Of a DNA stretch of 64,000 nt, positions 2,641 through 64,000 are shown piece by piece. The stretch covers positions 1,808,388 to 1,872,387 of the forward strand of contig RPFO01000296.1 of NCBI GenBank assembly GCA_009746045.1. The letters run 5' to 3'. The translations under genes were made by a program, and so were the position numbers. This stretch comes from Mesostigma viride. Its lineage: Eukaryota; Streptophyta; Mesostigmatophyceae; Mesostigmatales; Mesostigmataceae. The first letter of the stretch is position 1. Every line of letters starts with the position of its first letter. The notes under the pieces were generated by a model. It saw nothing but the letters and a program-made list of their open reading frames with translations. It was not told the DNA's origin and ran no database searches.

Positions 2641-4298
2641 CTGTCTGAGGCAACCCCTTCACACCTTAATTCACCAAAAGGGGAGGCCATGCAGGTGCTC
2701 CAATGCAGATTTTATATCTGGGCGAAGAGAGGGTGATCTCCAGGTTCAGGGTGGCCCCAGGTCACCTGGAGAGGTACAGGTTCCTATGAAGACGTCCTTG
2801 ACAGCTGATGCAGCTGTAAGAATGTCTGACCCCATGCATCCTCGTGCTGGGCACAAGGAGTTACGTTAAACAGTGCCGGAACCTTTTTGCCGCCTGAGGC
2901 AAATCGGGCCGGAACACTATTTTGCCCGGAATAACCACTTCCGAGCACCCAAGTTAATTCGGCCGAATTAACTTGGGTGCTCGGAAGTGGTTATTCCGGG
3001 CAAAATAGTGTTCCGGCCCGATTTGCCTCAGGCGGCAAAAAGGTTCCGGCACTGTTTAACGTAACTAAAACCTGGCCTCGTGGAGGGGGGACGAAGAGCC
3101 CGAGACATCCGCCTAGGCCGCTGAGCACGCACCACTAAATGCGCCGGAGCTGCCTCAGTGAGGATTCGAACCCCTGACCTCCAAGGTGCACAGGTTTTAG
3201 TTACGTTAAACAGTGCCGGAACCTTTTTGCCGCCTGAGGCAAATCGGGCCGGAACACTATTTTGCCCGGAATAACCACTTCCGAGCACCCAAGTTCATTC
3301 GGCCCTCATTTTGAGAGAAACCAATGTACAACCACAGAGGGGTGTGAAGGCCTCTGGTGGTATGCATGTGGTCCCTGCTGGCGGTCCAGGTGTTGGGCAT
3401 GAGCAGGGTGACTCAGGCTCTGAGTCAGAACAGGATGGAAGTCAGCATGGTGATGCTGGACAACCTGACAGCACAGTCCTGACTGTGCCAGGGACTGCTT
3501 CCTCTGTGTACCAGGAGTTGGGTGCCCGAATCCACAACATGTTTGGGCATGCCACTTCTTTGTCCAACAACTTTGCCTTCCGTATGGGTAGGGCACCCCT
3601 TCTCAAGGCGTGCCAGCAAGCTGCCTCACGGTGTAAGTGCCAGTTGTCCTCCAACAAGCCCAGGAAATCACATGCCAAAGCTCTACCTCAGAGCATTGGT
3701 GATCTGCAGTGTGATATCCAACACATCAGGGGCATGCAACTGTTGGTGTGCGTAGACAGGTACACAAAATACAAGGTGCTGGAGCATTTACCTTCTATGA
3801 AGAACAGGTACTTGCTGGCTGCCCTGCAGAATGTACGAGCCAAGTTTCCTACCACAAGGATCCAGGTGGACATGCAGTTTCAGCATCTCAAGGGTGATCC
3901 CACCCTTCCTGAGTTGCTGGTTACACCTAGGGAGGCTCATGGGCAGCAGGGTGCTATATGTAGAGAGGGCAATCCAGGAGGTCAAGAAGTTGATCATCTC
4001 TGAAGACTGGGTACCCTTGTCTGCACCTGCACTTGTACGTCAGGAGTGCATGGCTGAGGAACGTGGAGCAGCAGCTGAACAGCAGGGTCAATTTCTACTA
4101 TGATGGAGTTGCTGTCAGCCCAATGGGTCTATATCATGGCCTGTGCCCTCCACATGTGCTGGAGGGCTGGAAACATGCTGCACATGTCACCTTTGCCAAG
4201 CTGAGGGAGAAGGACCGGGGTTGGAAGATGCTGGAGCCACAAGTGGGTCAGAAGGTCCTAGCTTGGAAGGAACCTAGCCTTTATGGCAAACGTGGTAG
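2641..4298 (+). pseudogene. pol (copy A) part 1: integrase
   Basis: Contains the integrase zinc-binding pattern H-x-H...C-x-C (IHNMFGH ... CKCQ, about 3528-3645). The catalytic core follows: first Asp in LQCDIQHI, second in IQVDMQF, and Glu in the GxxER-type block. The Glu is disrupted here by a 4 bp insertion near 3957. Another 4 bp insertion lies near 4037. Interrupted by the palindromic element at 2859-3303 and, after the conserved WKEPSLYGKRG block, by LTR element C1. Not functional. Confidence 0.85.
2859..3303. mobile_element. Palindromic-LTR mini-element FB1, right end truncated
   Basis: A 208 bp near-perfect palindrome (2859-3066) starting AGTTACGTT and ending AACGTAACT, then a 132 bp spacer (3067-3198), then one arm of a second copy of the palindrome (3199-3303). 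The second palindrome stops at its centre and about a dozen bases of flanking copy A sequence are missing, judged against copy B around 12400. The spacer has tRNA B-box-like sequence on the minus strand (GGGGTTCGAATCC). No ORF. The complete relative is at 60620-61163. Confidence 0.85.
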
Positions 4299-4810
4299 TG
4301 TTAAAGGACATGGGGTTATTATTATGGGGACTTAAATTAATAATTTGTAGGTGGTGAATCATTGCCGACTTAAGCGTCAGGAGCCAGGAAAATTATTTAT
4401 TACGTCCATATGGTGTGGCTTTCCATGGCTACCTCAAGGTAGCGTGAACATTGGTAATTATGGTAGGTGAGTGGTGGCGGCGGCCCTGGTATGCGCATGG
4501 GCCGACAATGGGTCGATAACGACAGCTGGTATGTTGGAACATGGTGCATGCGCATGCATGACTCGGTACGGCATGGTATGACATGCACATGACACAATAC
4601 TATAATCTGGTGAAGATAGTGACCAATGGTCCTAGTGCCATTGTACAACTTGGCACATAGTCATAGTGTCCGTTCACGTAGGACAAATCCCACTTAGGTA
4701 CTACTATCCGAGCATATCTATTTGTTAATTAGGGCTCGAATACAACTGCCCGTATTATAGATTTCTGCACGGTCAGCATAATGGGCATATTCAAGACAGG
4801 ATTCTTGACA
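4299..4810 (-). repeat. LTR of element C1 (3' LTR)
   Basis: 512 bp, near-identical to 6458-6969. A conserved 82-codon reading frame inside it recurs in other copies but lacks an ATG, so I do not call it a gene. Confidence 0.92.
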
Positions 4811-6457
4811 CCCTCCTTGCACATGATGCTGTCTATAAATACAAATGCTAGATCCTGGGCGAGGGTAGTCGGGTACCTAAGTGGATTCCCTCCTTACACG
4901 ACACCCTGGTCTTGATATAAAACAGCAAGAAAAATGAGGGCAAGGTTGTGTAGCCCCATATTGTCACATGGAGTGCGCCACACGAGGGTGGAGCCAAACT
5001 GGAAACAGGCTCTTAAACTGGAAAGACTGGTTGCTCAGTGTTGAGGCTGGATGCAGACTGTAGCCGGTACTGGTTGATGCCAGGGTTGCAGCTCGAAACG
5101 TTGGGAACTGGTAGCGGCTGGTAAACCGGTGACGTCAGCTGTTGTGTGTGCACACACGATCTATGCTGTGTGTGGGTACAGTTTCTTGTGTGGTGCTGGT
5201 AGTGCTACTTTGACTTGTTTGCCAACAGGTTTTGATGCAACTTACTGCAACTACTACAAGGTGAACTGTGACGTGAGGATGTAGAGCTGGTTGCTGGACT
5301 GCTACTTGCTAGCTAGACAAGTGCGTGCAGCTGACTGCAGCTACTATCTACTCTACGCCTGTGGTGGAGAGTCATGCATGTGCTGCTGGGTGCTACTACT
5401 TCTCCTTGCTGGCTAGGCAAGTGTGGGTAGCTGCCTGCATGGACTATGCAGTGTACTCTGTTCCTGCTGGTGTTGCCTGCTGTGCTTGTTGATGCCAGTG
5501 TGATGGTGCTGATGGGACTGTGCTGTTACTGCTGCTTACATTATGGGGCAACTGGTTGCTAGTGGGTGTCTAGTGCTGGCACGTGATAATGCAACTAGCT
5601 GTTACTGCTGCTAGTGGTGCCTGCAACTAGTTAAATGTGACTGAATTATAAAACTGCAACTAGTGCTGAAAACAACGTGGGGGTTAGTGAGCACCCTCCT
5701 TAGTGTGGTGTGCAGCTGTGTCAGCAGGCTGGCCTTGAGAGCAGGACCCAGGGAATGTTCCCCTTTTTCTTGGAAACTTGGAGCATGGCAGGCTCTGGGC
5801 TCTTGAAGTGATGACCGTTTAAAAAGAATTCCGGTTTAAAAGAATGCGCCCAAAAGAATGTTGATGCCACGCGAAATGGTGCCGGTACAAAAGAAAGACC
5901 GGTTCTCATGAAAAATTCTTGAGGTAAACAGCTCCGCCGATTTCTCGTCGATGCTCACAGCTCGCGCGGCTCAGTGGGAGCCCGTCAGTGACCCCGCGCC
6001 GATTGAACGCACTGCACTTGGCCAAAAATGTGCTGCCAGGTAAAAAATCACTGGCGCTGCCTGGAACCAGAGCCGGCACCTTTTGAGTGCCAGGCTTCAG
6101 TGCCGACGTCCCCATCACCGAAATGTTGGCGTTTGATCAGTTTCGGGCATATATAAGTATAAAAGCGTAGATCTGGCCTGCGCACCGGAGCTTGGGAAAT
6201 TCTTGACGGATTTTAGCGACGGTAGGTGTCACCCCGAATATTTGGTGTTACCACACGTTGAAGTAAGTCGATTGAAAGCCTTGAATTTCACGGTAGCATC
6301 TGCGCCATAATCATGGTCGTATCAAGTACAAGAATTCGACCAAGCTGCTCCGTATATGAAAATATAAACTATGATCAAGGCGCTCAATAAAATGTGAGCT
6401 GCCGCTTAGAGGTTGGTTAATTCCGTTGAAAGATCTTGCCCCGGACCTCCGATGCCA

Positions 6458-6969
6458 TGTTAAAGGGCATGGGGTTATTATTATGGGGACTTAAATTAAT
6501 AATTTGTAGGTGGTGAATCATTGCCAACTTAAGCGTCAGGAGCCAGGAAAATTATTTATTACGTCCATATGGTGTGGCTTTCCATGGCTACCTCAAGGTA
6601 GCGTGAACATTGGTAATTATGGTAGGTGAGTGGTGGCGGCGGCCCTGGTATGCGCATGGGCCGACAATGGGTCGATAACGACAGCTGGTATGTTGGAACA
6701 TGGTGCATGCGCATGCATGACTCGGTACGGCATGGTATGACATGCACATGACACAATACTATAATCTGGTGAAGATAGTGACCAATGGTCCTAGTGCCAT
6801 TGTACAACTTGGCACATAGTCATAGTGTCCGTTCACGTAGGACAAATCCCACTTAGGTACTACTATCCGAGCATATCTATTTGTTAATTAGGGCTCGAAT
6901 ACAACTGCCCGTATTATAGATTTCTGCACGGTCAGCATAATGGGCATATTCAAGACAGGATTCTTGACA
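6458..6969 (-). repeat. LTR of element C1 (5' LTR)
   Basis: 512 bp, same length as the partner LTR. Adjoins the primer-binding-like site on its inner side and target duplication GGTAG on its outer side. Confidence 0.92.
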
Positions 6970-7830
6970 GGTAGCTGGAGTCCTGGGGTGGTTACCCAGG
7001 TTGATGAAGCTAGCCACGCATGCTTGGTCAGCATGGAGGACGAACCAAAGCATGTGCACCGGCTGAGTTGGTCATATGTCAAGCCTAACCTGATGAATGA
7101 GGGCAGTCAGGCACAAGGCTCACAGGACCTGCAGGATTTTCAGGTCCCAGGTGACATCACTGACGCAACGACCACATCTGTTGCAGGGGAATCTGTCAGC
7201 CCTGGCCAGGTTGCAGAGGTACCTGTTGAACAGGCTGCAAGGTCAACAGCTGGGGAGTCAACTGTCAAGCCCAAGGCTCTAACCAAGCCCAGGGGGACCA
7301 GTTTGGCTGGATTGATTGGGGCTCTGCAAAGCCGAGCCAAGAAGCAGCCCAAGGTAGCCAAGCTCAGGTGGCATGGCAATCTGGGGCTGGACACTGCCTT
7401 AGAGGTAGACACTAATTCTCAGGTCTCCATCATTGGGACCAGAGCTGCAGCAGGGTACAGCATGACTGAACCCAGCTATCAGTTTGTGTCTGACTTCAGT
7501 GGCGGGGTACACGTGAAGGTACTGGGTGAGGTATCTATTCCTATCCTTGGACAGGACACTGCATTTTGTGTCTTGCATGGAGGGCCCTATCAGGGACCTG
7601 CTCTTCTGGGGCAGAATTTCCTATGCCAGGATGGGGTAGTGATCACGTCCTCTCTCCTGACTAAGGAAGGGGCTGGTCAGGTCCCACTGATTAATTTCAG
7701 GACCACTCACCTATCACGTGCAGTAACCAGGACGGTTAAGCGTGTGCAAGTGTGCCAGGGGCAGGAGCCCTTGGTTGATGACCTCATACTGCCAGCTGCT
7801 AGTCATCCAAGCAGTTTGGGCATTGAGTTA
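6970..7830 (+). pseudogene. pol (copy A) part 2: integrase C-terminus and protease-like domain
   Basis: Resumes exactly where 4298 stopped (GSWSPGVVTQVDEASHACLV). A linker follows, then the retropepsin-like domain: active-site-like ALEVDTNSQVSIIG near 7402-7443, a flap-like FSGGVHVKVLGEVSIPILG stretch, and a second hydrophobic-Gly motif (ALLGQNFL) near 7600. The usual D-S/T-G triad reads D-T-N. Compared with copy B there is a CATG insertion plus 2 extra bases near 7572. The sequence ends abruptly at the start of copy B. Confidence 0.85.
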
Positions 7831-7907
7831 ACGTAAAGGATTTACGTTAGATGGATAGAGATTGTTACGCTCTTTCCAACGGCACCTTGAACGCCTCATT
7901 TGGTTAA

Positions 7908-23150: not shown

Positions 23151-23256
23151 AGGCTGGATGACCCCTGCTTTATTGACAAATATAAGGATTTAATCACATG
23201 TGGAAAAATTGAGTAAAATTTATGAAATTGAGCAAACACTTATGAATCCCCTCTAC

Positions 23257-25446
23257 TTGCTGGCTGCCCTGCAGAATGTACGAGCCAAGTTTCCTACCAC
23301 AAGGATCCAGGTGGACATGCAGTTTCAGCATCTCAAGGGTGATCCCACCCTTCCTTCAGGAGTTGCTGGTTACACCTAGGGAGGCTCACGGGCAGCAGGG
23401 TGCTATCGAGAGGGCAATCCAGGAGGTCAAGAAATTGATCATCTCTGAAGACTGGGTACCCTTGTCTGCACCTGCACTTGTCAGGAGTGCATGGCTGAGG
23501 AACGTGGAGCAGCAGCTGAACAGCAGGGTCAATTTCTACTATGATGGAGTTGCTGTCAGCCCAATGGGTCTATATCATGGCCTGTGGCCACCACATGTGC
23601 TGGAGGGCTGGAAACATGCTGCACATGTCACCTTTGCCAAGCTGAGGGAGAAGGACCGGGGTTGGAAGATGCTGGAGCCACAAGTGGGTCAGAAGGTCCT
23701 AGCTTGGAAGGAACCTAGCCTTTATGGCAAACGTGGTAGCTGGAGTCCTGGGGTGGTTACCCAGGTTGATGAAGCTAGCCACGCATGCTTGGTCAGCATG
23801 GAGGACGAACCAAAGCATGTACACCGGCTGAGTTGGTCATATGTCAAGCCTAACCTGATGAATGAGGGCAGTCAGGCACAAGGCTCACAGGATCTGCAGG
23901 ATTTTCAGGTCCCAAGTGACATCACTGACGCAACGACCACATCTGTTGCAGGGGAATCTGTCAGCCCTGGCCAGGTTGCAGAGGTACTTGTTGAACAGGC
24001 TGCAAGGTCAACAGCTGGGGAGTCAACTGTCAAGCCCAAGGCACTAACCAAGCCCAGGGGGACAAGTTTGGCTGGATTGATTGGGGCTCTGCAAAGAGCC
24101 AAGAAGCAGCCCAAGGTAGCCAAGCTCAGGTGGCATGGCAATCTGGGGCTGGACACTGCCTTAGAGGTAGACACTAATTCTCAGGTTTCCATCATTGGGA
24201 CCAGAGCTGCAGCAGGGTACAGCATGACTGAACCCAGCTATCAGTTTGTGTCTGACTTCAGTGGCGGGGTACACGTGAAGGTACTGGGCGAGGTATCTAT
24301 TCCTATCCTTGGACAGGACACTGCATTTTGTGTCTTGGAGGGCTATCAGGGACCTGCTCTTCTGGGGCAGAATTTCCTATGCCAGGATGGGGTAGTGATC
24401 ACGTCCTCTCTCCTGACTAAGGAAGGGGCTGGTCAGGTCCCACTGATTAATTTCAGGACCACTCACCTATCACGTGCAGTAACCAGGACGGTTAAGCGTG
24501 TGCAAGTGTGCCAGGGGCAGGAGCCCTTGGTTGATGACCTCATACTGCCAGCTGCTAGTCATCCAAGCAGTTTGGGCATTGGTCCTCACTCACTTCAATG
24601 CTGGACACAGCCCTATCAACTACCAAGGCCTGGTGAAGCTCATGTCCTCTCCCATTATGTGTCCCCAGGTCACACTGGGTCTGATTAAATCTGGGGAGGA
24701 CTGGATCTCCAAGAAATGCGTGGAACCTGTCAATGACCTGCCTCCTGCACGACGTCTACTCAAGCTCAAGTTTGTCATCAAGATGAAGGAGGTGGACGGG
24801 GTCAAGGTACCACATGTCAGGCCAGTGCTGAATGAGTTCAAGGGTACTGGTGAGTGCACTGCTGAGGAGTTGTATACCCCTGGCATGTTGCATGACACTT
24901 GGAGGCTGCTGCTGTGTGTACTTCTAGGCCTTCTCAATAAGGGCTTGGACTATGGCTCAGTGGTGGTAGACTTCAAGAGGGCATTTCTGGAGGGGGATGC
25001 AGATGTGGCACAGGAAAAGTGGGAGGGCAAGACGCCTTTCTATGTCAGGGTGTCTGCTGTATGGAAAAGGGACATTCACACTGAGTTCCTTAAAATCCTC
25101 AAGGGCCTGGAGGGCCTGAGGTCAAGTCCAATAATCTGGAGGGAGACTCTCAACCGTTTCCTGAAGGAGCATTGCAACTTGAAGGTCTCTCCTGTAGACC
25201 CCTGTCTGTTTCTGGGGCAATGGGAAGGCCTACCAGTGTATGCTTCGCTGCACGGGGATGACCTACATCTGATAGCTCCCACGTCGTGGCTTAAGGAGCT
25301 GATCTCCATCATTAAGTCCAAGTTTCCTCTGGGTAGGGAGCAATGGCAGGTGGAGAATGAGCCTCTATACTGTTTGTAGGCATGGAGGCCACACTGGTGA
25401 AGAAGGGGGGGGAGTGGCGTATGCTGCTGGTGGGGGGCAATGATTA
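23257..25446 (+). pseudogene. pol (copy B) part 2: integrase core, protease-like domain, RT
   Basis: Resumes the integrase (second Asp in IQVDMQF, Glu in GAIERAI) after element E. Order then: integrase C-terminus with SLYGKRGSWSPGVV, linker, protease-like domain (EVDTNSQVSIIG, then ALLGQNFL), and reverse transcriptase: LKLKFVIKM, LYTPGM, motif A VVDFKRAFLEGD (about 24960-25000) and the active site LHGDDLHL (about 25249-25270) in place of Y-x-D-D. Frame errors: 4 extra bases near 23353 relative to copy A, and a 1-base shift near 25368 that gives a premature stop. Cut at 25446 by the CACTA element. Confidence 0.88.
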
Positions 25447-41198: not shown

Positions 41199-41943
41199 TG
41201 TTGAAAGAACTAATGGGTTTGCCTTCTACAATGCTTGTGATTGAAACCCAAATGTGCCTGTCCTTGCAGGTACAGGCTATGGAGGATGGGAGCAAAGAGA
41301 CAGAGACTCAGTTTGAGGCAGAATGATAGTGAGGAGTACCTTTGGCAAGGCTCCTCAGTTGTTTTATTAACTCGAGGAAAAAACACAGGCAGCAAACTGG
41401 AATGACCTGATTGGCTGGCTAGGAATGTGCCTAGGAATATTCTCATGTAATACTCAGGCCACCAATCAGGTTAGGTCAGTGTACAGGCTACCAATCAGAT
41501 CTAGACAAGAATAAATCTTATCTTGTAACTGCTGTACAGCCTTATCTTGTAACTGATGTACAGTCTTAACTTGTAACTGCTGCACAGTAATCTAACTATT
41601 TAATAAAAGATCTCTCTATGTGTGATCTGATGATGATGAAGTAAATCTGGCGTGAACATATCAGCGCCACATCTGACATGCACAGTGTACATGTCAATCA
41701 GTCAGCTGTCCTGTCATAGATTCTCATCTGACATGTCATAGGTCAGCTGACATAGACAGATTTGTCAGCTGCCTATAAGGATCCACTTGGCATAGGTACT
41801 AATCCCTGATTACTAAAACTGGCCACAACTTTCTCATTTGTAGGCCAAATCCAACGGGATAAAGAACAGTGGCTCCTGTACAAGAGCCTCTATCTATCTA
41901 GCCAGGTCAGGTGGGTACAAATACAAGGACCATGTCCTTGACA
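41199..41943 (-). repeat. 3' LTR of element G
   Basis: 745 bp; differs from 45448-46192 at only a few positions, so the insertion is young. Confidence 0.95.
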
Positions 41944-43286
41944 CCCCCCTTACAACACATGACCTTGCTCTAGTGCTATCCTGTCAAGTATAACACTTAG
42001 AGGAAAAGCTCTCAGCCATAGCTAAGTCAAGCCTTGACCAAACATAGGACTCTAGAATTAAATTCAGTACTCACTATCAAGGTGACATTTGGGTACAACC
42101 TTGACACCCCCCTTACCCACATGGCACCAAACCAAAAATGGGATGCAACCCAGGCCAGTGGTAAGGATCAAACACTAACTGATCACGGGTAAGTGGGCGA
42201 AAAACATCCACCCCCCTCGCTAGCAAACACCGTGGTCAAAGTAGTCAAAAGACGATCTCCACGGAAACTGGAAACTGGAACTCCGGACCGGTGACGCGCC
42301 GAGTGTCCAACGAAAGCAGCAGGAAAGATTGCCGCATCGCCCAGCAACTAGCATGTGTTGCCAAGTCAAAAACTTCGTTGGGAAGATGCGCTTTGGATCA
42401 CACCCCCCTCACTCTAGCGTCGCCTGAAAACATGAAGAAGCACACAAAATGCTCTAACACAGGCAAACTCTTAGACAATGCAGGGGACATGATGTATGAT
42501 TAACGCATAAAACATGTGATTAACGACATAAAGCATCCGACCTACGGCAGAGCACCAACGGTGAACAAGGAGCAGAACACGTAGTCCTGACACACCTTAA
42601 TCACACAGGTAACTAACATAAACCGACATAGTCATGGATCTTAGCATTAGCCAACATGAACGAACTGAAAAGACAGCTCTGATTAACCAACGATAGTTGA
42701 AAGCGACTAAAAACGGGACATGAAGCGACGACAAAGTCAGGAGCACAAACGCAGGCTATGTACAAAAGACACAACCGCAAACTGCATGAACAAACCTAGC
42801 ATGCAACGAGAAAGTATGCCCTAAGAATGGGCAACACACACGACATGAAATGAACGTGCAGATTGACCACAAAAAGGGTCAGCAAGAACGGAGACATGGC
42901 CAGCAAACCGGCGCTAGCCAAACGTACCAAGATTACAAAGAACTTGGAAAACATACCATTGCTGGTAGAAGAACGTCATGGGGACGATGAACACAGGTGG
43001 TCTAGAACTCAAATAACGCATCCCGACGAAGCGCTATGAAAAAGTCTAGCAGAAACAAAACAAGACTATGCGAGATGCATAAGGCCGGAAGGACCCCGCA
43101 CCTAACAGCACAATAGACCACAAAATATTCGTGTCTAAAGCAATTTTTCACGAACGAAAAACAGTGGCGACTTGAGATCATAGGGGTTAGTTAAGCTAGC
43201 TATCAAATTCCCAACGAACGTGACCATAGCGCATCCCCAAAAATCGCCATGAAAATAGCGGAAGCAGGGCTCCCGCACCGACCGCC

Positions 43287-45357
43287 TTAGTGCTCAAGGC
43301 AGCACTTGTGCCGGCAACTTGTTGGCTCAGCACAGTCCCAAATTGACAGGGACACGTGGCAGCCGACGACTCCAGCTCCAGGACTTGGCTCCAGGACTGG
43401 GCTTGGACTTGGTGCATCTGGTGGCCTCCCCTCACCAGGAATTCCCCCCGCAGCAAAATCCAAAATGCTGGCGCCCGAGACGCGCCACGCCAAACCCCCA
43501 CTTGATTCTGGCCAGGGAGCGAAACCGTCACGCAGCAGGCTTGGTGACGTCTGCGTGTTGGCACTAGTAGGCCAAACGATGCCAGGCTGGGGAAGCTCTC
43601 CCAGCACGCCACGTAGGTTGACATCCATGGACAACGGCAAGCCAGGTGAGCTCGCCGCTGGAGGGGTCAGGGAAACTGGTGGAGCAGAGTCCACCTGATC
43701 TGGCACGAGAGGGCTATAAGTAGTACTGCCCGACGCAGAACTCCAGGAACCGTCCTCCCCGTGTGCCCCAACGACCGGTACTAAGCCGATCCCATTCCTT
43801 GCCGTCCCCACCACGCCAAAATCCTGCACAATTGCAGGTTTGTCAGCGGAAAAACCGCCCTTGCCGCCACACGACAGTGGCGACGACACCGGGCGCAGCA
43901 AAGCGCCTCGGGAAGAAGCCTGCAGCCCCAAAGGCCGCGAAAAGCCAGGCAGAAAGCCCAGCGTCTTGGACATGGCCGCCACTGGCAGGCCAGCGCTCCA
44001 CAGCGACCCCAACGGCCGCACGGTCGTGGCCGCCAGCGCCGCCTTCTTGTTGAGAGCAGGTAACACGTAGACGTTGTCCCTCTGCTCCATCTTGTGCGCC
44101 TTGTTGTCCACCACAGCGATTTCCTGGTTGAAATCCAGCTTGTGGCCAGCCTTCACGAGCGCTCCAACAGAGAGCACCCGAACGGGCAGCTCGGGGACCA
44201 GAAGGGCTCCATCCAGTCGGAGCTCGCTCCCCGGCAAATGCACAGAAACTGTGCCAACTCCAGCAGCTTGCAGGTCGCCGCCTGATCCGACGATCTGCCT
44301 GTTGTGGGGGATAAGTGACACGAAGTCAGAACGGCACGGGGACATGTGGCTGCTCGCAGCCGAGTCCAGCACCCAGTTGAGTTTGTCGCCCGTATACTGC
44401 GTGAGAGCAGCAGCCTCCAGCGGCGTCGACGGCGACTCCTCGGCGATGGTGACCATGCAGAAGCCAGGCGGCAGTTCAGCCGCCTCCTGAGTTGCGTTGG
44501 CAGCGGATCCAGCAGGTGCGTTGCGTCCCTTGCTCTGGTTCCCTCGGTTGCCGCCCTTGCCCCCCCTGTGCTGGTTGGGGTACCAGCGTGGGGCCTTCTC
44601 AGGATGCTCCTTCCAGCAGTCTTTGTCCTTGTGATTTGACAGGCCACAGTGACTGCATTTCTTGGTCCCCCCGTTCCCCTTGCTGTTGGTGTGGTAGGCC
44701 TGGCCAGTGCCAGCACTCTCCTTTTTCACCACAGCACGTCCCCCCTTGAGCAGATCCTCCGCCTCCATGAGTGCCCTCTTCACCACAGGTAGTGGGTCCT
44801 CCTCGTTGAACCGTACAGACACCAGCGCAGGGCGGTACTCGTCTGTCAGTGCTCCCAGTAGAATGGCAGCAAAATCACGGTCCTGGATGACTCCCCCTGC
44901 AGCCTGGTAGTCAGCACGTAGAAGCTCCGCCCTCCTCACAAGCTGTTGCATGGTCTCGTTAGGAAGCTTCTGTAGGCGGTGCAGCTTGCTCCTCAGCTCA
45001 AACCTGTGACTCTTGGTTAGCCTGGTTTGCTCATAGTTCTCCATGAGACACTGCCATGCTTGGCTACCAGTTTTGTTGGCCACAGTGGCCATGAGGCGTG
45101 CAGCTTCACCTGTTAGACAGGTGAGCAAAGCTGCCCACAGGGCCTTATCAGCCCTGTCATTCTCCTCAGTGCCCAGCAGGACAGCATCCAAATTGAAAAG
45201 ACTGACAACAGCCAAAAACAGATTCTTCCACTCCTCCCACTTGCTGTAATCATCACCAGCTGCACCAACAAATTTCTTGCAGCTCTTGGCAACTGTTGAA
45301 ACAAGAGAGGTGTAGTCAGGCTGTCTGGTAGCAGTTTGGGTGTCTTGATCCTCCATG
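43287..45357 (-). CDS. gag-protease polyprotein of Copia element G, pol replaced
   Basis: The best start is the ATG at 45357 (MEDQDTQTATRQPDY); an ATG further upstream (45434) falls in the primer-binding site. Residues about 30-220 form the Copia gag (UBN2-type) domain (KWEEWKNLFLAVVS ... LLGALTDEYRPAL). The zinc knuckle is CSHCGLSNHKDKDC. A protease follows with WVLDSAASSHMSP, a D-S-A form of the usual D-S-G, and the LSVGALVKAGHKL block. After the Copia pre-integrase-like YVLPALNKKAA the sequence turns into about 230 Pro/Ser/Gly-rich residues with no integrase motifs. It could still make particles but not copy itself. Confidence 0.85.
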
Positions 45358-45447
45358 GTTGATCTGGGTCTGGGTGTTGTCTCTGGGGTAGTCAGATGAA
45401 TGTCTCTGCTCCTCAAATGCAGGGTAGGCATCAAACCTCCGATACCA

Positions 45448-46192
45448 TGTTGAAAGAACTAATGGGTTTGCCTTCTACAATGCTTGTGATTGGAACCCAA
45501 ATGTGCCTGTCCTTGCAGGTACAGGCTATGGAGGATGGAAGCAAAGAGACAGAGACTCAGTTTGAGGCAGAATGATAGTGAGGAGTACCTTTGGCAAGGC
45601 TCCTCAGTTGTTTTATTAACTCGAGGAAAAAACACAGGCAGCAAACTGGAATGACCTGATTGGCTGGCTAGGAATGTGCCTAGGAATATTCTCATGTAAT
45701 ACTCAGGCCACCAATCAGGTTAGGTCAGTGTACAGGCTACCAATCAGATCTAGACAAGAATAAATCTTATCTTGTAACTGCTGTACAGCCTTATCTTGTA
45801 ACTGATGTACAGCCTTAACTTGTAACTGCTGCACAGTAATCTAACTATTTAATAAAAGATCTCTCTATGTGTGATCTGATGATGATGAAGTAAATCTGGC
45901 GTGAACATATCAGCGCCACATCTGACATGCACAGTGTACATGTCAATCAGTCAGCTGTCCTGTCATAGATTCTCATCTGACATGTCATAGGTCAGCTGAC
46001 ATAGACAGATTTGTCAGCTGCCTATAAGGATCCACTTGGCATAGGTACTAATCCCTGATTACTAAAACTGGCCACAACTTTCTCATTTGTGGGCCAAATC
46101 CAACGGGATAAAGAACAGTGGCTCCTGTACAAGAGCCTCTATCTATCTAGCCAGGTCAGGTGGGTACAAATACAAGGACCATGTCCTTGACA
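45448..46192 (-). repeat. 5' LTR of element G
   Basis: 745 bp with minus-strand ends TGTCAAGG and TTTCAACA; abuts the primer-binding site. Confidence 0.95.
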
Positions 46193-47846: not shown

Positions 47847-50390
47847 CATGGTGTATGTACATGTGAGTGCCGTCGCCCCAACCGTGCATTGTGTATGTAC
47901 GTGTGTGTGCAGCCGCCCCTTGCGTGCATGGTGTGTGTACATGTGTGTGCATCCTTGTCCTTGCGTGCATGGTGTATGTACATGTGTTTGCACTCGCCCC
48001 TTGCGTGCGCGGTGTGTGTACGTGTGTGTGCAGCCGCCCCTTGCGTGCATGGTGTGTGTACATGTGTGTGCATCCTTGTCCTTGCGTGCATGGTGTGTGT
48101 ACATGTGTGTGCAGCCGCCCCTTGCGTGCGCGGTGGATGTACATGTGCGGGCAGTTGCCCCTTGCGTGCGCGGTGTATGTACATGTGTTTGCACTCGCCC
48201 CTTGCGTGCGCGGTGTATGTACATGTGTGTGCAGCCGCCCCTTGCGTGCATGGTGTATGTACATGTGCTTGCACTGGCCCCGTGCGTGCGCGGTGTATGT
48301 ACGTGTGTGTGCAGCCGCCCCTTGCGTGCGCGGTGTATGTACGTGCGTGTGCAGCCGCCCCTTGCGTGCGCGGTGTATGTACATGTGTGTGCATCCTTGT
48401 CCTTGCGTGCGCGGTGTATGTACATGTGTTTGCACTCGCCCCTTGCGTGCGCGGTGGATGTACATGTGTGTGCAGCCGCCCCTTGCGTGCATGGTTTATG
48501 TACATGTGTGTGCAGTCGCCGGCCCCGTGCGTGCGCAGTGGATGTACGTGTGTGTGCAGCCGCCCCGTGCGTGCATGGTGTGTGTACGTGTGTGTGCAGC
48601 AGCCCCTTGCGTGCGCGGTGTATGTACGTTTCTGTGCATGCCGGCCCTTGCGTGCATGGTGTATGTACATGTGCTTGCACTGGCCCCTTGCGTGCGCGGT
48701 GTATGTACGTGTGTGTGCAGCCCCCCTTGCGTGCGCGGTGTATGTACGTGTGTGCGCACTCGCCCCTTGCGTGCGCGGTGTATGTACGTGTGTGTGCAGC
48801 CGCCCCTTGCGTGCGCGGTGTATGTACATGTGTGTGCAGCCGCCCCTTGCGTGTGCGGTGGATGTACATGTGCGGGCAGTTGCCCCTTGCGTGCGCGGTG
48901 TATGTACATGTGTTTGCACTCGCCCCTTGCGTGCGCGGTGTATGTACATGTGTGTGCAGCCGCCCCTTGCGTGCATGGTGTATGTACATGTGCTTGCACT
49001 GGCCCCGTGCGTGCGCGGTGTATGTACGTGTGTGTGCAGCCGCCCCTTGCGTGCGCGGTGTATGTACGTGTGTGCGCACTCGCCCCTTGCGTGCGCGGTG
49101 TATGTACGTGTGTGTGCAGCCGCCCCTTGCGTGCGCGGTGTATGTACATGTGTGTGCATCCTTGTCCTTGCGTGCGCGGTGTATGTACATGTGTTTGCAC
49201 TCGCCCCTTGCGTGCGCGGTGTATGTACATGTGTGTGCAGCCGCCCCTTGCGTGCATGGTTTATGTACATGTGTGTGCAGTCGCCCCGTGCGTGCGCAGT
49301 GTATGTACGTGTGTGTGCAGCCGCCCCTTGCGTGCGTGGTGTGTGTACATGTGAGTGCAGCCGCCCCTTGCGTGCGCGGTGTATGTACGTGTGTGTGCAG
49401 CAGCCCCTTGCGTGCTTTGTGTGTGTACATGTGTGTGAATCCTTGTCCTTGCGTGCATGGTGTGTGTACGTGTGTGTGCAGCCGCCCCTTGCGTGCATGG
49501 TGGATGTACATGTGAGTGCCGTTGCCCCTTGCGTGCGCGGTGTATGTACGTGTGTGTGCAGCCGTCCCTTAATTGCGTGCGCGGTGTGTGTACGTGTGTG
49601 TGCACTCGCCCCTTGCGTGCGCGGTGTATGTACGTGTGTGCAGCCGCCCCTTGCGTGCGCGGTGTATGCCAGTGTGTGTGCATGCCGGCCCTTGCGTGCA
49701 AGGTGGTGTGTAAGTGTGTGTGCAGCCCCTTGCGTGCATGGTGTATGTACGTGTGTGTGCAGCCGGCCCTTGCGTGCATGGTGTGTGTACATGTGAGTGC
49801 AGCCGTCCCTTCCGTGCATGGTGTGTGTACGTGTGTGTGCAGTTGCCCCTTGCGTGCGCAGTGTATGTACGTGTGTGTGCATGCCGGCCCTTGCGTGCAT
49901 GGTGTGTGTACGTGTGTGTGCAGTTGCCCCTTGCATGCGCGGTGTATGTACATGTGAGTGCAGCTGCCCAAGAGTATGTACATGTGAGTGCCGTCGCCCC
50001 TAATTGCGTGCATTGTGTGTGTAAGTGTGTGTGCAGCAGCCCCTTGCGTGCGCGGTGTATGTACGTGTGTGTGCAGCCGCCCCTTGCGTGCATGGTGTAT
50101 GTACATGTGAGTGCCGTTGCCCCTTGCGTGCGCGGTGTATGTACGTGTGTGTGCAGCCGTCCCTTAATTGCGTGCGCGGTGGATGTACATGTGCGGGCAG
50201 TTGCCCCTTGCGTGCGCGGTGTATGTACGTGTGTGTGCAGCCGTCCCTTGCGTGCGCGGTGTATGTACGTGTGTGTGCAGCCGCCCCTTGCGTGCATGGT
50301 GAGTGTAAGTGTGTGTGCAGCAGCCCCTTGCGTGCGCAGTGTATGTACGTGTGTGTGCAGCCGCCCCTTGCGTGCGCGGTGTGTGTATAC
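47847..50390 (+). repeat. 40 bp minisatellite, block 2
   Basis: Same 40 bp unit as block 1. Ends at TATAC where element D is inserted. All six frames are largely open because 40 is not a multiple of three and the unit lacks stops; the very long frames here (up to about 700 codons) are artefacts. 48138-50390 is matched in blocks 3 and 4. Confidence 0.95.
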
Positions 50391-50817
50391 AGTTAATAAA
50401 CGACCTATGGCCTAACGCATGTGTTTATTACAATAAATCACAAGCCCCGCACCCAACGTGCACAAGGGCATTTAGCATTGTCGACAAGCAACGCTCTGCC
50501 TGGCTGCCACGTCTGGAGCAGCCGACAGTGGCCGTTGGGCTCTGTGGTGCAGCCTGAGTGGCGCGACGCCACTGCTAGACTCTCAGGACCTTAGTCCAAC
50601 ATCCGACACCTCAATGTCAGTCCCGAGTGGGTACTGGCGACGCCGTACCGCCAATCCTACTTGGGTACTGGCGTCCGTCACCAGGACTCGGCTATCGAAT
50701 AGTCTAGCCTGCCGAATCACATATAGCCGGGACTTCTGACCGAGCCTACACGTGCGAAACCCCAGAAAGCACATTGCTATCTGGTACTTAGCCTATGTCC
50801 ACGACTAGAGGCTAACT
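50391..50817 (-). repeat. 3' LTR of element D
   Basis: 427 bp. Identical to the other LTR over nearly all its length except a block after the first 12 bases, which is 16 bp shorter here. Confidence 0.93.
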
Positions 50818-51181
50818 CCAGTTTTATTCTTTTTTTTTTTTTTTTTTTTTAAGGCATCAGTGCTGCACCTCCAGTTTTTATTCCTTTTTGTTTTTTCAGG
50901 TACTTGGCAATATCATGAATAAGACATTGGTACAGGAAAACTCATATCAGACCACAATGGACGTTGTGAATTAAAGCGCCCACAGACCCCATTGCCTTTA
51001 AATCTGACAGTGTCTTTGAGGTTTCTGAACCTAGGATCCCCTGTTTGTACAAGTCAGTGGAGTGATGAGTGGCTATGGAAAAACCAGGGGGCACATCAAG
51101 AAATTATTATGTTTGTTGCCAAGTTGCCACCAGCTGGGAAAGACCATAGTCTGCACCATTAGTCTGGAGTGCCCTATTTCA

Positions 51182-54100
51182 TCATCCATTTGTCTGACTA
51201 GACAGATAGGGATTCATTGCATCACACAGAAGCTGGTACTGGGTTGCTGCTAATGACGGAATCTTGGTCAATGCGTCAGCCAGGTTCTCCTCGTCTGGCA
51301 GATGCTGCCAGCTGGAAAAATAGCTTGTTTCCTGTTTCAAAATCACCCAGTCCAGATCAGTATGCACAGCAGCAGTCACAGATTTCTTGTTAAGGAAACT
51401 AATGACTGACTGACTGTCAGTGTGTAAGTGAGCATGCACATCAGCCTTGCTGCCAGCCTGAGTTTGCAACCAGGTTAGTATGTGCTGAAGGGATCGAGCA
51501 TGCTGCACAGCAGACACCACAGCACGGCACTCAGCAGAGTTACTGCCAACAGCTTTTCTGCGATGCAATCTGCTGTACCACGACACCATGGACATATAGT
51601 CTCCCTTGTTGGTAAGGAAGAACACCCCAGCCTCCCTGGCATCCATTTTTGTTATTACCCTACTCTCCATGGAGCTGTCCATCAGACAGTTAATGTGAAT
51701 ATCTTCCATGAGGTTGAGTGGATGAATGACAAGGGAAGGTCCAGCCTTTAGTAGCTTCTGGAGATCCTTAGGTTTCATGGTTTGTAATACTGTGTCATCA
51801 ATCCTGCTGACCACTGCCAGATGAGGTGCACAGATAGCACTCAGCCACCCTAATTTTCCTTTGACAGTAGCACACATGTGAGCAGGAATGCACGGAATAT
51901 CAAGCAGCTCTAGGCATTCTTCTAAGTACTGGGCAGGCGGGGATAGAGTACACACCCACTGTTCCTGTTGCTCTTCCAGTGCTAGCATTATGCCACAGAA
52001 CTGTAGGGGTTCTGGCCCCAGCTCTGTCTGCTTTCCAATCTCATATGACTGCTGAACCTGCTGAATGAACTTGTCAACTTCAGCTCTTGGTCCACAAATC
52101 AGTTGGTCATCACCATGCCACACAAACAGGAGCAAGCCAGAGGGTGTGGGCACAGCAAAGAGACAAGGGTCCAGATCATCATAAGTGGCATTAAGTTTCT
52201 TGAACACCTCTTCTGCTGATTTTCTGAAGATAGTGGGAGCACTTTGCAAACCTTCCACCCCTAGATTTAGGAGTAGATATGGCTCATCAATATCATGTGC
52301 CCATGCAGCAGGGGTGGGAACCACATAGACCTGACCCTTCCACACATCTTGCGCTTTATCAGGGTCCCCTCTAAGGAAAGCCCTTTTGATATCAGTAGCT
52401 TTGCAGGCATAATCTTGGCCAGCATTGAGATGGTGGAGGAAGACAGAGAGCAGTATCCTGAGGGATGTTTGCTGCAGCCCAGGAGTGTAGAGTTCACCCT
52501 TGGACAGTTTTGACATGCCTTTTAATTCTGTCACACATGGCCTAGCATGATATATAGGTGAGCCTACTGGCTGTGCCTTGTGTTTTAGCACAAACTTGAG
52601 TCTCAACTTTTTGGCACCTTCTGGAATTTCCCAGACAGGAGTGACAGGTGGCTTATAGTCAGGATGCTTAGGGTTTGGCAGCACCCACTCTTCGCGGGCT
52701 TGGTGCCTAATGGCTTGGATCCATTTTTGAAACCCTTTTTGTGTTTTGCATTGTTGGATTAGAGCATCATAGTTGTGAGGAGAGTGCATGGCTAAGTCCC
52801 ACTTTCCAACCCCAAAGGACTGCGGGTGTGGCCTTTGATTGTGCACCTTTTTCTCTAGGTCAGGGATTTCACCTGGCCCATATTTGATGTTAATGGCCTT
52901 GATATAGGCATCTAATCCATGAACCAGTTGGGACAATGGAATCTTGTAGTGATCCAAGGGAATGGCTCCTACCCCAGTCACACGCAGCTGGCTAGCAGTG
53001 ATGGTGACACCTGGGTAAGAGATAAAGGGTTCTCCCAACAAAGCATTGCCCATGTACCCTTCCACTACCTGGAAAGGTGTCTGGATGCCAAGTATGGGGA
53101 TCATTACTTGACCCAACACATCTAAGGTTGTTTTGCCTGAAAAATCTTGCACCTGTGTCCATGGTGAGGGTGCAAGTTGCAGACCAGGAATGGCTTGTGC
53201 ACTGATCACACTGACCTGTGCCTGAGTGTCCACAGCTAGGATGCAGGATTCCTGGCTATAATCGGAGCACACAGCAGAGACCTTGGCCAAACCTGAGGCT
53301 TGTTTAGCCTTGCTCTTGTGAGCCTTATGCAGAGCTGCCAGGGCTTTTTCTAGCTTGGATTTGAACTCAGCTGGATTGCCTTTGTTTTGCTCTGGTACCT
53401 CATGCCTGGTTGAACTCTGCCCAGAGGGACTTACACCAGGTTGTGGGGTGACACGTACCTCACTGAGGGGTGGAGGAATGACAGAGGGTGTGGTAGTGCC
53501 ATCATCAGCTCCTGGTGTTGGAATGCTGGGTGGTTCTGCTTGCTCACCAGAGTTAAGGAGGGAATCCATGTTCAAGGACTCTTCCCCTGGCACGTCTGCC
53601 AAAGGAGGGAAATACTTCTTAACTCTATGACTGCTCACCCTGTGTTTTCTCCCTGTTTCCAAACTTCGAATATCCATATTTTTTCCTTTTTTGGTCATTC
53701 TTAGAACAGTGCACGGACCATACCACATGCCTGTCTTGCCATGTTTGGTTTCTTTGAAATATAGGACTTGTTCACCCAGTTGGAATACTGTTCTGGGGTG
53801 TGTTATGTCCTTTTCAGCTAGCTTATCAGCCACTTTAGCTCTTACTGTGTTATACAGAGCTAATACCTCTGGAGGGTACACACCTGCCTGTAAGCCAATG
53901 GGAAGGATTTCCCCCCATGGTGCATGCAACACAGGTCTAAGGTTAAGTGTAGCACAGATTTCACTGCACCACAGTGCTCTGTCAGCATAGCTTCCAGATG
54001 TGGCTTTCAGGTCAGTGGATTTCGCCACTAAAGTTTTGACTGACCTGATGGTTCTTTCAATGACACCCTGCCCTTCATGATCTTGCAATCCAGCAATCTC

Positions 54101-57100
54101 AATATTAGCATCCCATCCTTCACACTCAGCCAGACAGCTAAACTGTTGATCAAGCAGTATAGTGTCAACTGGGTAGAATCTGGGCAATGCTATCACAAGT
54201 GCTGCACGCAGTTGCTCTTTAGCCATTCCAGGTAGGGGTTCCATGACAGTGAATCTGGACCATGTGTCTTTTAGGATCAGATATTGTTCACCATCGATAT
54301 GCACGACATCACCCACAATTATTCCCCTTTGGGTGGGTGGTGTTGCGACATGCCATTTGGGAGGTTTTGGGCCATGGAACTGACATTGCTGGCAGTGTTT
54401 TCTAGCCAACCTGACAGCATTCCTGAGTCGTGAACCTCCTGCTCTTCTGGCAATCTTTTCTGCCACCACCTCATGACCCATGGCTATGTGGAGCTGGGTT
54501 GCTAGTTCCCTTAAGTCTACTGTGTCAACAGCAGCTGGGGTAAGAGCTTTGAGGTAGGGCAGTATCACATTATACGTGGAGGAGATTTTCTGAGCTGCCT
54601 CAAAATCTAGCAGTCCCTTGTCTTTATCCCCAATGATAATGAGATCATATAAATCCACATAGGCGTGCTGTGAGGACGTACATCCTTTTGGAGCCTTGTC
54701 CTGCCGGTCGCACCACGTGCCGGGGGGCAGATGGCGGGGGTGCTTGCAACCGAAGCAGAGGTCCACGTCGCCTACTGCGGGGTTCCACTTGCAGTCCGCC
54801 CGCTGGTGTCCCTTGGTGCCACACCGGGTGCACTTGTTCTTGGGACCTGCATGGGGGGGCTGAGCAGTGGGTGCAGGGGTGGGTGGGGCAGGTGTGGGGG
54901 GGGTGGGCCGCCTCCACTGGTTTGGCTTGAGCTGAGCAGGCTGTCCCGGCTGGCCTTGGGGCTGGTTGCCCTTGGCCTTCTTGGACTGGCCGCCCTGCTG
55001 CCCCCCTAGCTGGCGCTTTTTTCCTTGCCCCTTCCCTTGGGTCTGTTGGACCTTGGGGGTTGGGGTTGCAGACGGAGCACCTATAGCCAGGGGAGTCAGG
55101 CAGTCTTGGATATGGTTCATCCCCGCCCGGAAATCGTTCCACAGAGGTTTGAGACCTGCAACCACAGTGGCGTACACAGCTTTGTCCAGGTTAGCATTTG
55201 ACAACCATGAATACAGCAGGTAGCTAGCAGGCAGACCCCTGAGATCAGGGTCCTTTTCTACAGCCAACCTATAATTCTTGCAATCAGTGGCATAGTCTTG
55301 CTTGTTGACCTGGTAAGCATTAAGCCAGTTGAAACCACGGATGGATTCAAACTGTGTCCTATCCACCAGCAAGTGCTTAAGCTCATCCATGAAGGCTGGC
55401 CACAATGCAATTGCTAGGTTAGGTGTCCCAGCCTTTTCTTGGTAAATCTGGACCAAGGTTTTAATGGCTGGGGCTGACCTATGGATGGTGGTGGATGCAC
55501 GCAAGGCACTGAACCAGTTCTGGACATTCAGAGACTCAAAACAGTAGTTCAGGCTAAACAAAAATTCCTTGGCCTGTTCCTGGGTGTAACCCTCAGGTAA
55601 GCCAGGGATTTCTATTTTAGATTCTTTTTGTTTTGGGTTAAACGTACCTTTGACCGGGTCCTTCTTTTCAGCCAAGAAAGTCTTGACTGCTTGTTGAAGA
55701 TCAGCCTCCTCCATGTTCGCCCTGCCCCTTTCCAGCTGGGAGATACTGGCCAGGAGGCCATCCAGCTGGGTGCGCGACAGGTCGTCCATGGGGTTGGTGG
55801 CCATGGTCTTGAGCTGTGCCGTGAGTATGGCAAGCAGCTCTTGGACGTCCCCCTTAAGGGTGGGTGGGGTTGGGTCCACTGGGGTCCCTTTTGCCACCGC
55901 CTTGCTCTTATCTGACTGCCCTGGTGTGGGTGCAGTCTGCTGGGCCTCCGCAGAAGGTGGTTGTGTTCCAGCTTGCTGTGCTAGTGCAGTGGCTGGTGGT
56001 GTTCCAGCTGCAGGCGCAGGGTCTTGTTCCCCTTGCCTTACTCCACTGCTGGTAGGAAAACCCTTGGCCTGGCCAAGCTGCTGCAGCGCTGCTGCTTGGG
56101 CTGCCAGGCCGCCCTCACGGGCTATCATGGCCTCTAGGAGTTTATTCTCCACCACCTTGCGGCGGTGGAGCTCCTGGGCATCCGGGTCACTTGGGGGTTT
56201 GCTGGGGGAGCTGGGGACAGTGCCCTGGCTCTTGCCCTGCAGCACCCTTGGTGACACGGCCCCTCCAACCACCCTTTGGCTCAAATCAGTGCCAGGGGTG
56301 GGGAGGGTATGTGCAGGGAGTGCAGGCGTTTCTGTTGCCTGCATCTTCTCCTGCAGCTTGGTCAGCTGCAACAGGAGGGAATTGAGTTGGTCCGCTGTTA
56401 GCGTGACCCCCTCGTCCCCCTGTGCAACAACCAGCTCATTGAAGAGGCGCTCATGGAGCACCTCTCCAGCTTGCATGGCAGCCAGCTGCTTTTCAGCAGT
56501 CATGTTGCGGGCCGCTGTCTTTTTGCGGTCCCGCTCTTGCTGTGCAAGACGGCGTGCCTCTACAAACTGGGCGGCGGCCTGTTCGACCGCCTGATTGAGT
56601 GGATTCATCTCAATCTCCCCATCAGAAACCCCTGGGGAGAGGGTGACCTCGTCATCAGACAGCTGAATGCTGCCGATGACGGGTCCTGGGACCTTCTTGG
56701 TCCGCATTTTGAACATGTATGCGTCCCTCTTCAGCTTCCTCTCGTACCCCCCCGCTTTCTGAGCGGATGAGGGGACGATCGGCACCCCCGCTTGTTCTCC
56801 ACCGCTTTTGGCTATTCCGCCCTCCTCCTGAGGAGGTTGGGACGGTGCCTTAGCGGGGAGGTCAGCGGGGCTTGCCTGAGGGCTGGGGGACCGCATACTG
56901 CTTACGGATTTTTGCGAGCTAGCTGGGCTAGAAAAAACAGATTTTTCGGCCTGTTCGGCCAAGGAGGTTACCTGTTTTTGCAGGGCTGCCAGCTGCCGCT
57001 CTTGGGCGGCTGCCTTGACGCTTTGCTGAGCCATCGCTGTCGCTAGCTGCCTAGCCACTAGCTGTTCCTGCTCCGCCTGCGCCCTTCTTGCTTTTTTAAT

Positions 57101-57205
57101 TTTCTTGGCCGCAGCCTTCTCCTCTACTGTTGGCACCGTCTGCCAGCCAGCATCATCTATCCGCTTCTTTTTGAATTTCAGGCCTGGCATAATAGGATCT
57201 CCCAT
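51182..57205 (-). CDS. gag-pol: gag-integrase-protease-RT-RNase H polyprotein of element D
   Basis: 2007 codons, no interruption. Residues 1 to ~780: gag with coiled-coil and Pro/Gln-rich stretches and a capsid-like region (~530-720). Zinc knuckle CTRCGTKGHQRADC (~790-806) and a second Cys/His cluster. Integrase: H-x3-H...C-x2-C zinc site (~905-945), catalytic Asp in VVHIDGEQY (~968), Asp in TILLDQQF (~1016) and Glu in GVIERTIR (~1047); the second spacing is about 30 residues, shorter than the usual 35. Then the protease-like domain (LAVDTQAQVSVIS ~1323; NALLGEPF), RT (DIKRAFLRGD ~1605; WHGDD ~1696) and RNase H (MDSSMES, SAECRAV, HTDSQSV, ADALTK). Copia normally has protease before integrase. 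Confidence 0.93.
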   Translation of the reverse strand: MGDPIMPGLKFKKKRIDDAGWQTVPTVEEKAAAKKIKKARRAQAEQEQLVARQLATAMAQQSVKAAAQERQLAALQKQVTSLAEQAEKSVFSSPASSQKSVSSMRSPSPQASPADLPAKAPSQPPQEEGGIAKSGGEQAGVPIVPSSAQKAGGYERKLKRDAYMFKMRTKKVPGPVIGSIQLSDDEVTLSPGVSDGEIEMNPLNQAVEQAAAQFVEARRLAQQERDRKKTAARNMTAEKQLAAMQAGEVLHERLFNELVVAQGDEGVTLTADQLNSLLLQLTKLQEKMQATETPALPAHTLPTPGTDLSQRVVGGAVSPRVLQGKSQGTVPSSPSKPPSDPDAQELHRRKVVENKLLEAMIAREGGLAAQAAALQQLGQAKGFPTSSGVRQGEQDPAPAAGTPPATALAQQAGTQPPSAEAQQTAPTPGQSDKSKAVAKGTPVDPTPPTLKGDVQELLAILTAQLKTMATNPMDDLSRTQLDGLLASISQLERGRANMEEADLQQAVKTFLAEKKDPVKGTFNPKQKESKIEIPGLPEGYTQEQAKEFLFSLNYCFESLNVQNWFSALRASTTIHRSAPAIKTLVQIYQEKAGTPNLAIALWPAFMDELKHLLVDRTQFESIRGFNWLNAYQVNKQDYATDCKNYRLAVEKDPDLRGLPASYLLYSWLSNANLDKAVYATVVAGLKPLWNDFRAGMNHIQDCLTPLAIGAPSATPTPKVQQTQGKGQGKKRQLGGQQGGQSKKAKGNQPQGQPGQPAQLKPNQWRRPTPPTPAPPTPAPTAQPPHAGPKNKCTRCGTKGHQRADCKWNPAVGDVDLCFGCKHPRHLPPGTWCDRQDKAPKGCTSSQHAYVDLYDLIIIGDKDKGLLDFEAAQKISSTYNVILPYLKALTPAAVDTVDLRELATQLHIAMGHEVVAEKIARRAGGSRLRNAVRLARKHCQQCQFHGPKPPKWHVATPPTQRGIIVGDVVHIDGEQYLILKDTWSRFTVMEPLPGMAKEQLRAALVIALPRFYPVDTILLDQQFSCLAECEGWDANIEIAGLQDHEGQGVIERTIRSVKTLVAKSTDLKATSGSYADRALWCSEICATLNLRPVLHAPWGEILPIGLQAGVYPPEVLALYNTVRAKVADKLAEKDITHPRTVFQLGEQVLYFKETKHGKTGMWYGPCTVLRMTKKGKNMDIRSLETGRKHRVSSHRVKKYFPPLADVPGEESLNMDSLLNSGEQAEPPSIPTPGADDGTTTPSVIPPPLSEVRVTPQPGVSPSGQSSTRHEVPEQNKGNPAEFKSKLEKALAALHKAHKSKAKQASGLAKVSAVCSDYSQESCILAVDTQAQVSVISAQAIPGLQLAPSPWTQVQDFSGKTTLDVLGQVMIPILGIQTPFQVVEGYMGNALLGEPFISYPGVTITASQLRVTGVGAIPLDHYKIPLSQLVHGLDAYIKAINIKYGPGEIPDLEKKVHNQRPHPQSFGVGKWDLAMHSPHNYDALIQQCKTQKGFQKWIQAIRHQAREEWVLPNPKHPDYKPPVTPVWEIPEGAKKLRLKFVLKHKAQPVGSPIYHARPCVTELKGMSKLSKGELYTPGLQQTSLRILLSVFLHHLNAGQDYACKATDIKRAFLRGDPDKAQDVWKGQVYVVPTPAAWAHDIDEPYLLLNLGVEGLQSAPTIFRKSAEEVFKKLNATYDDLDPCLFAVPTPSGLLLFVWHGDDQLICGPRAEVDKFIQQVQQSYEIGKQTELGPEPLQFCGIMLALEEQQEQWVCTLSPPAQYLEECLELLDIPCIPAHMCATVKGKLGWLSAICAPHLAVVSRIDDTVLQTMKPKDLQKLLKAGPSLVIHPLNLMEDIHINCLMDSSMESRVITKMDAREAGVFFLTNKGDYMSMVSWYSRLHRRKAVGSNSAECRAVVSAVQHARSLQHILTWLQTQAGSKADVHAHLHTDSQSVISFLNKKSVTAAVHTDLDWVILKQETSYFSSWQHLPDEENLADALTKIPSLAATQYQLLCDAMNPYLSSQTNG

Positions 57206-57236
57206 GATTTTGTCTATGGTAAACGACTTTAATTCA

Positions 57237-57679
57237 AGTTAATAAACGAGTGGACCTCTCAATGCTCAATGGCCTAACGCATGTGTTTATTACAATAAAT
57301 CACAAGCCCCGCACCCAACGTGCACAAGGGCATTTAGCATTGTCGACAAGCAACGCTCTGCCTGGCTGCCACGTCTGGAGCAGCCGACAGTGGCCGTTGG
57401 GCTCTGTGGTGCAGCCTGAGTGGCGCGACGCCACTGCTAGACTCTCAGGACCTTAGTCCAACATCCGACACCTCAATGTCAGTCCCGAGTGGGTACTGGC
57501 GACGCCGTACCGCCAATCCTACTTGGGTACTGGCGTCCGTCACCAGGACTCGGCTATCGAATAGTCTAGCCTGCCGAATCACATATAGCCGGGACTTCTG
57601 ACCGAGCCTACACGTGCGAAACCCCAGAAAGCACATTGCTATCTGGTACTTAGCCTATGTCCACGACTAGAGGCTAACT
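57237..57679 (-). repeat. 5' LTR of element D
   Basis: 443 bp. Has the longer version of the variable block (57249 to about 57273), which lies at the downstream (U5-like) end in the element's own orientation. Confidence 0.93.
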
Positions 57680-57684
57680 TATAC

Positions 57685-63838: not shown

Positions 63839-64000
63839 TGAGGTTATGCCCACCTCTTGCCGTGTATTTATGCTAGGTAGTCTAGCCGTGTGCTATTCCA
63901 ACTTATCGCATCACATTTTATATAGTGGCGAGTGAGATATTTAGTGCCGATGGTCCTATTCCGGCACTGAGCGTGCAATATGTGTGGCGATAATTAGAGT
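63839..64000. other. Unique sequence at window end
   Basis: The minisatellite stops inside a unit (CCCCTTGTGTCTGAGG). No gene or repeat recognised in the remaining 160 bp. Confidence 0.5.

Follow-up and report, generated by a model that had tools for sequence, protein, structure and literature searches.

Mesostigma viride (Streptophyta) carries a clade of Copia-like long terminal repeat (LTR) retrotransposons in which integrase is encoded ahead of a retropepsin-like domain, and this order is real and conserved. The reference copy, element D, lies in a stretch of 64,000 nucleotides that we analysed as a whole and refer to as the window (NCBI GenBank assembly GCA_009746045.1, contig RPFO01000296.1, positions 1,808,388 to 1,872,387 of the forward strand). 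We consider it probable that these elements are a lineage with Copia-like reverse transcriptase (RT) and RNase H that has an ILG-type retropepsin (the Gypsy, retrovirus and host type of clan AA) between integrase and RT, and none between gag and integrase. The initial annotation of the window knew of no lineage with integrase before protease, and we likewise found no description of one in the literature searched (open-licence papers, partly as titles and the beginnings of abstracts); as far as that literature goes, the order is new for Copia-like elements.

Domain order of element D

Element D is a full LTR retrotransposon of 7289 bp on the minus strand (50391..57679, edges read from the sequence), bracketed by the 5-bp target-site duplication TATAC at 50386-50390 and 57680-57684. 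Its 5' LTR (57237..57679, minus strand) is 443 bp long with the ends AGTTA...TAACT, and its 3' LTR (50391..50817, minus strand) measures 427 bp, of which 411 bp equal the 5' LTR, with about 16 bp absent near the 3' end. One intact minus-strand open reading frame (ORF) at 51182..57205 encodes a gag-pol polyprotein of 2007 aa, exactly where it had been placed. Pfam, profiles and motifs together confirmed the order read earlier by eye, which is gag with a zinc knuckle, integrase, retropepsin-like domain, Copia-type RT and RNase H, all on the minus strand. The CCHC zinc knuckle (54788..54838, residues 790-806) matched Pfam zf-CCHC at an E-value of 0.045, under the cutoff.

The integrase (53591..54490, residues 906-1205) contains an HHCC motif, assigned as such by motif (H906, H911, C938 and C941), the acidic residues D966, D1019 and E1050, and a C-terminal tail. 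Pfam gave no integrase match in element D itself and a weak rve match in the related family B (best e-value = 0.0052). A profile, A8, built from three sequences (element D and its relatives D' and B) matched HIV integrases in the PDB, with a best e-value of 1.4e-4 and 83 chains at e-values up to 1. The best match spans profile positions 67-200, other matches begin at 54-55, and in the one alignment that we inspected the three acidic residues (DDE) are in register with a solved HIV integrase. We also observed a C-x-C within the HHCC motif region of family B, and at one locus of a further family (L036, family E) the third acidic residue is D (GLIDR) versus E elsewhere (GVIER or GAIER).

The RT (52031..52633, residues 1525-1725) matched the Copia type RVT_2 at 35.2 bits (e-value = 1.3e-8), over the cutoff of 31.6, and Pfam did not list RVT_1 for element D at e-values up to 10. 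Residues ~1836-1990 (51236..51700), which align in D' and in P0002, a protein introduced below, we take to be a Copia-like RNase H from motifs recognised by eye; Pfam returned no RNase H match in element D. Integrase thus stands upstream of RT and RNase H, by motif only, after it, as in Ty1/Copia. PDB searches with the whole element D polyprotein and with an RT profile gave no match.

The retropepsin-like domain

Between integrase and RT, residues 1316-1407 (52985..53260, minus strand) form the retropepsin-like domain, with Asp 1326 in the motif DTQ and the Gly of ALLG 65 residues on. The motif pattern of the lineage is retropepsin-like, x-x-V/I-D-T-x-A/S-x-V-S followed by a flap-like F-S-G or F-D-G and then LLG or LIG, and as in the retropepsins of Pfam gag-asp_proteas the D-T-x-A/S-x-V-S start is followed by an ILG-type end 65-66 residues later. 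The spacing is 65 residues in D, D', B and the locus L010, all with LLG, and 66 in L036, with LIG. The Asp and Thr of the active-site motif are invariant across six aligned sequences. In the whole element D ORF, gag-asp_proteas matched residues 1323-1395 (e-value = 0.15). At e-values up to 10, a protease profile matched 14 PDB chains: nine retroviral proteases (three named HIV-1, the others labelled protease or tethered dimer), four antibody chains and one other protein. A smaller protease profile matched two tethered-dimer proteases (e-values of 2.1 and 6.9).

Our searches revealed no other protease in these elements. Scanning element D for D-[STQ]-[GAQS] gave four sites, of which the sole retropepsin-like one was the DTQ at residue 1326 and none was D-T/S-G, so the earlier observation that no D-S/T-G site lies between gag and integrase extends to the whole polyprotein. 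In the pieces searched by profile, and in element D also by motif, the interval from gag to integrase gave no protease match, and a second, upstream protease was rejected for them. With its own protease masked, the element D polyprotein gave nothing else to the protease profile. A pattern search of the genome for one DTG version of the motif had 0 matches (one motif only).

Recurrence among copies and families

The genome searched comprises 439,911,974 bases in 2243 contigs. A search with the element D protease, in which the best 150 of 4383 candidates were scored, returned 56 D-family matches at 99-100% identity, seven of them in a stop-to-stop frame of 2018 aa, and 94 matches of the D' family at 79% identity. 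The family B protease likewise gave 150 scored of 4517 candidates, and among the matches listed identity was 99-100%. Across the fetched loci and the window, integrase preceded protease in 36/36 ORFs that contain both without a frame change. These ORFs are 28 distinct copies, since eight rows repeat fetches of the same copies; L009, L022 and other window pieces, which have the domains in separate frames, stand outside the count. Four families have the order in common, with protease identities to D of ~43-79%. The fourth, represented by L036 (2401 bases, one locus), took no part in building A8 and encodes an integrase (227.8 bits to A8) followed by the protease in one ORF.

Two family B copies lie in the window on the plus strand. 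Copy A (3275..7836) is interrupted, with integrase pieces within 3275-4332 and an ORF at 6892-7836 that holds the integrase tail, the protease (DTN) and the RT start. Copy B (23246..25379) has part of the integrase, the protease at 24161-24454 (DTN) and, in another frame, the RT at 24600-25373. That copies A and B share the order of D had been read as a sign of a family trait, and this now extends to at least four families.

We also searched an outside collection of 5.8 billion proteins; with no more than about 8000 candidates scored per search, absence elsewhere means little. A query of protease, RT and RNase H found one relative, P0002 (labelled jgi/Mesvir1, 39% identity), which starts with the protease (DTM), continues into RT and belongs to the family of L036. 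In the window's genome, nine loci with frames of 1249 aa, L036 among them, shared the top score for P0002, with 100% identity over 699 aa (71 matches; 64 of 8131 candidates scored). A second protein, P0003, found by alignment search, is collinear with D (P0003 3-340 against D 1183-1511, 42.7% identity), and the alignment covers the integrase tail, the protease (DTQ) and the RT start without interruption, the tail being too short for A8 to report. A whole-database protein search with integrase plus protease found none among 7999 scored candidates, and a scan of IMG/VR gave no match. An assembly error or a single rearranged copy, for which we saw no point in favour, was rejected on the 28 copies, the four families and P0003, and its probability is close to nil.

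Conservation of the protease

D and D' were compared by the Nei-Gojobori method over 12 stretches. Nonsynonymous divergence (dN) was lowest in the protease (0.113), with values of 0.123 for RT, 0.165 for the integrase core, 0.177 for RNase H and 0.357 for the linker between integrase and protease. Ratios to synonymous divergence (dN/dS) were 0.105 for the protease, 0.083 for RT, 0.068 for RNase H, 0.168 for the integrase core, 0.34 for the pre-integrase part and 0.133 for the linker, where dS is saturated at 2.7; these ratios are rough, as dS is near 1 or far higher, and infinite in two stretches. Among long stretches, identity between D and B was highest in the protease (49%), followed by RT (38%) and integrase core (32%).

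Nature and origin of the protease

Several of our observations weigh against the reading of these elements as Copia-like with an ILG-type retropepsin after integrase. The gag-asp_proteas match of a 93-aa piece of element D (e-value = 0.003) is under the curated cutoff, this family was matched in only 3/6 members at e-values up to 10, and no PDB match of the protease profile was significant (best e-value = 0.16). The active-site Gly of D-T-G is replaced by Q, N or M (DTQ, DTN, DTM), a difference from the retropepsins of gag-asp_proteas. RVT_2 falls under its cutoff in B (26.8 bits) and D' (22 bits), and P0002 has no Pfam hit, RVT_2 included. The copies were picked by protease search, so the count of the order speaks for copies that have a protease. 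Finally, because the linker also has a low dN/dS, the ratio alone fails to mark the protease. The call of a protease-like domain in the initial annotation is upheld by its motifs and a weak gag-asp_proteas match, while the canonical active-site Gly is absent.

We nevertheless think that the domain is likely a working protease, with catalysis predicted from sequence. If it were instead a catalytically inactive relic with a retropepsin fold, retained for a role in structure or dimerisation, a host protease would carry out maturation or there would be none. The missing triad Gly in the families seen and the lack of any canonical triad in D fit such a relic, but the invariant Asp and Thr and the lowest dN of all stretches speak against it, and we regard it as distinctly unlikely.

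Element G in the same window (41199..46192, minus strand) offers a partial contrast. Its LTRs, 41199-41943 and 45448-46192, are 745 bp long and 99.46% identical, and they enclose gag followed by a protease that matched the Copia type Pol_BBD at 1.6e-12, our positive control, with DSA at the active site and a VLSV end (ILS-like). Element G had been thought to follow the canonical order; gag then Copia protease bears this out in part, but no integrase or RT was found between its LTRs, with four further minus-strand ORFs also scanned, so that it is half a control. It looks like a non-autonomous derivative. The D-lineage protease profile gave only a chance-level match on element G (e-value = 0.29 in a set of two proteins), outside its protease.

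According to the portion of Llorens et al. (PMC2642776) on which we draw, Copia proteases usually have ILS and almost all other clan AA proteases ILG. The D-lineage protease is probably not an ordinary Copia protease that was moved, and replacement is favoured over relocation because the motif is ILG and not ILS, Pol_BBD was not listed for the D, D' or B proteins, P0002 or P0003, and hhalign found no relation to the element G protease (probabilities of 0.44 and 0.13, where 100 is the maximum; a weak comparison with one sequence on one side). A Copia protease that itself moved past integrase and then drifted, with ILG arising by convergence, would agree with the Copia-type RT of the element and the lack of any other protease; against the evidence just given, we find this very unlikely. 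The source of a replacing protease may be another retroelement or the host.

Relation to Copia and other elements

With Ty1/Copia (Pseudoviridae), element D shares the RVT_2 RT, integrase before RT, an RNase H-like part at the end, LTRs and a 5-bp target-site duplication. It differs in the protease after integrase, of ILG type without a Pol_BBD match, and in its LTR ends, which in families D, D' and B are AGTTA...AACT and not TG...CA (window 50391-57679; L018-L020, L023, L025-L032, L034). Copia membership is found, by RVT_2 match, for the RT in D and not for the position and type of the protease. The RT active-site motif is HGDD in D, D', B and P0002 (4/4); that of Copia is YVDD. These LTR ends and HGDD, together with the RVT_2 scores under cutoff, would suit a separate deep LTR lineage outside Copia with its own order and a Copia-like RT, but D is over the RVT_2 cutoff with RVT_1 unlisted, and integrase before RT and the RNase H-like part after it are as in Copia, making this placement unlikely. 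A deep separate lineage defined by Copia-like RT and RNase H, a non-Copia protease that follows integrase, precedes RT and works without the active-site Gly, and an integrase using AG...CT rather than TG...CA LTR ends is a possibility that we put forward tentatively. Papers on unusual LTR ends mentioned no AG...CT ends in their titles or the beginnings of their abstracts, and the word Copia is absent from the main text of two Mesostigma genome papers.

In the passages of PMC2774666 consulted, all known Ty1/Copia genomes have integrase downstream of protease. Those of a plant survey (PMC6317226) give GAG-PROT-INT-RT-RH for 5410 plant Copia elements and state that elements of unexpected order were discarded as likely mispredicted. 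The Gmr1 elements of Ty3/Gypsy resemble the D lineage in having an altered pol order as a family trait; they differ in that, by the same passages of PMC2774666, integrase moved before RT yet remains downstream of protease, and the RT is of Gypsy type. Petunia vein clearing virus (Caulimoviridae), again from those passages, has integrase upstream of gag and hence presumably upstream of protease, but is a pararetrovirus and not a Copia-like LTR element.

Polyprotein processing and further features

The polyprotein of gag, integrase, protease, RT and RNase H, a single ORF in D, would dimerise, and two protease copies would pair in the particle as in other retropepsins. Cleavage at the gag/integrase, integrase/protease and protease/RT borders would then release integrase from both gag and RT. 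With protease encoded after integrase, an integrase-free short Gag-protease product would require integrase to be skipped, which would tie the protease dose to integrase. In Copia, unlike the D lineage, a short Gag-protease product without integrase is possible.

The gag/pol border varies among families. In family B, gag and pol are separated by an in-frame UGA CUG at all six loci (L023-L028), ahead of a 989-aa pol ORF, which suggests stop readthrough. In family D', gag and pol share a frame in L018 but occupy two overlapping ones in L019 and L020, a difference located in a run of G. The RT and RNase H parts of family B occupy different frames in L023, L025 and L028 and one frame in L010.

LTR pairs were present in 14/16 elements examined, with 97.2-100% identity, and a 5-bp duplication was readable in 11 of the 12 elements with both flanks visible, the exception being L027 (by eye). 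Element D is embedded in arrays of a 40-bp minisatellite (window 47800-50400 and 57700-64000). Several frames of these arrays are open on either strand, so the long ORFs within them are unlikely to represent genes. At L025:8140-9900, an ORF labelled by eye as LINE-type RT-like is open across a family B LTR end into the flank.

Significance

Superfamilies of LTR retrotransposons are defined with the help of domain order, and the D lineage, abundant and with near-identical LTRs, shows that this order is not fixed. The positions of protease and integrase can change independently of each other, and real lineages can go unnoticed where elements are filtered by order. With Q, N or M where retropepsins have the active-site Gly, these retropepsin-like domains offer a direct test of how strictly that Gly is needed.

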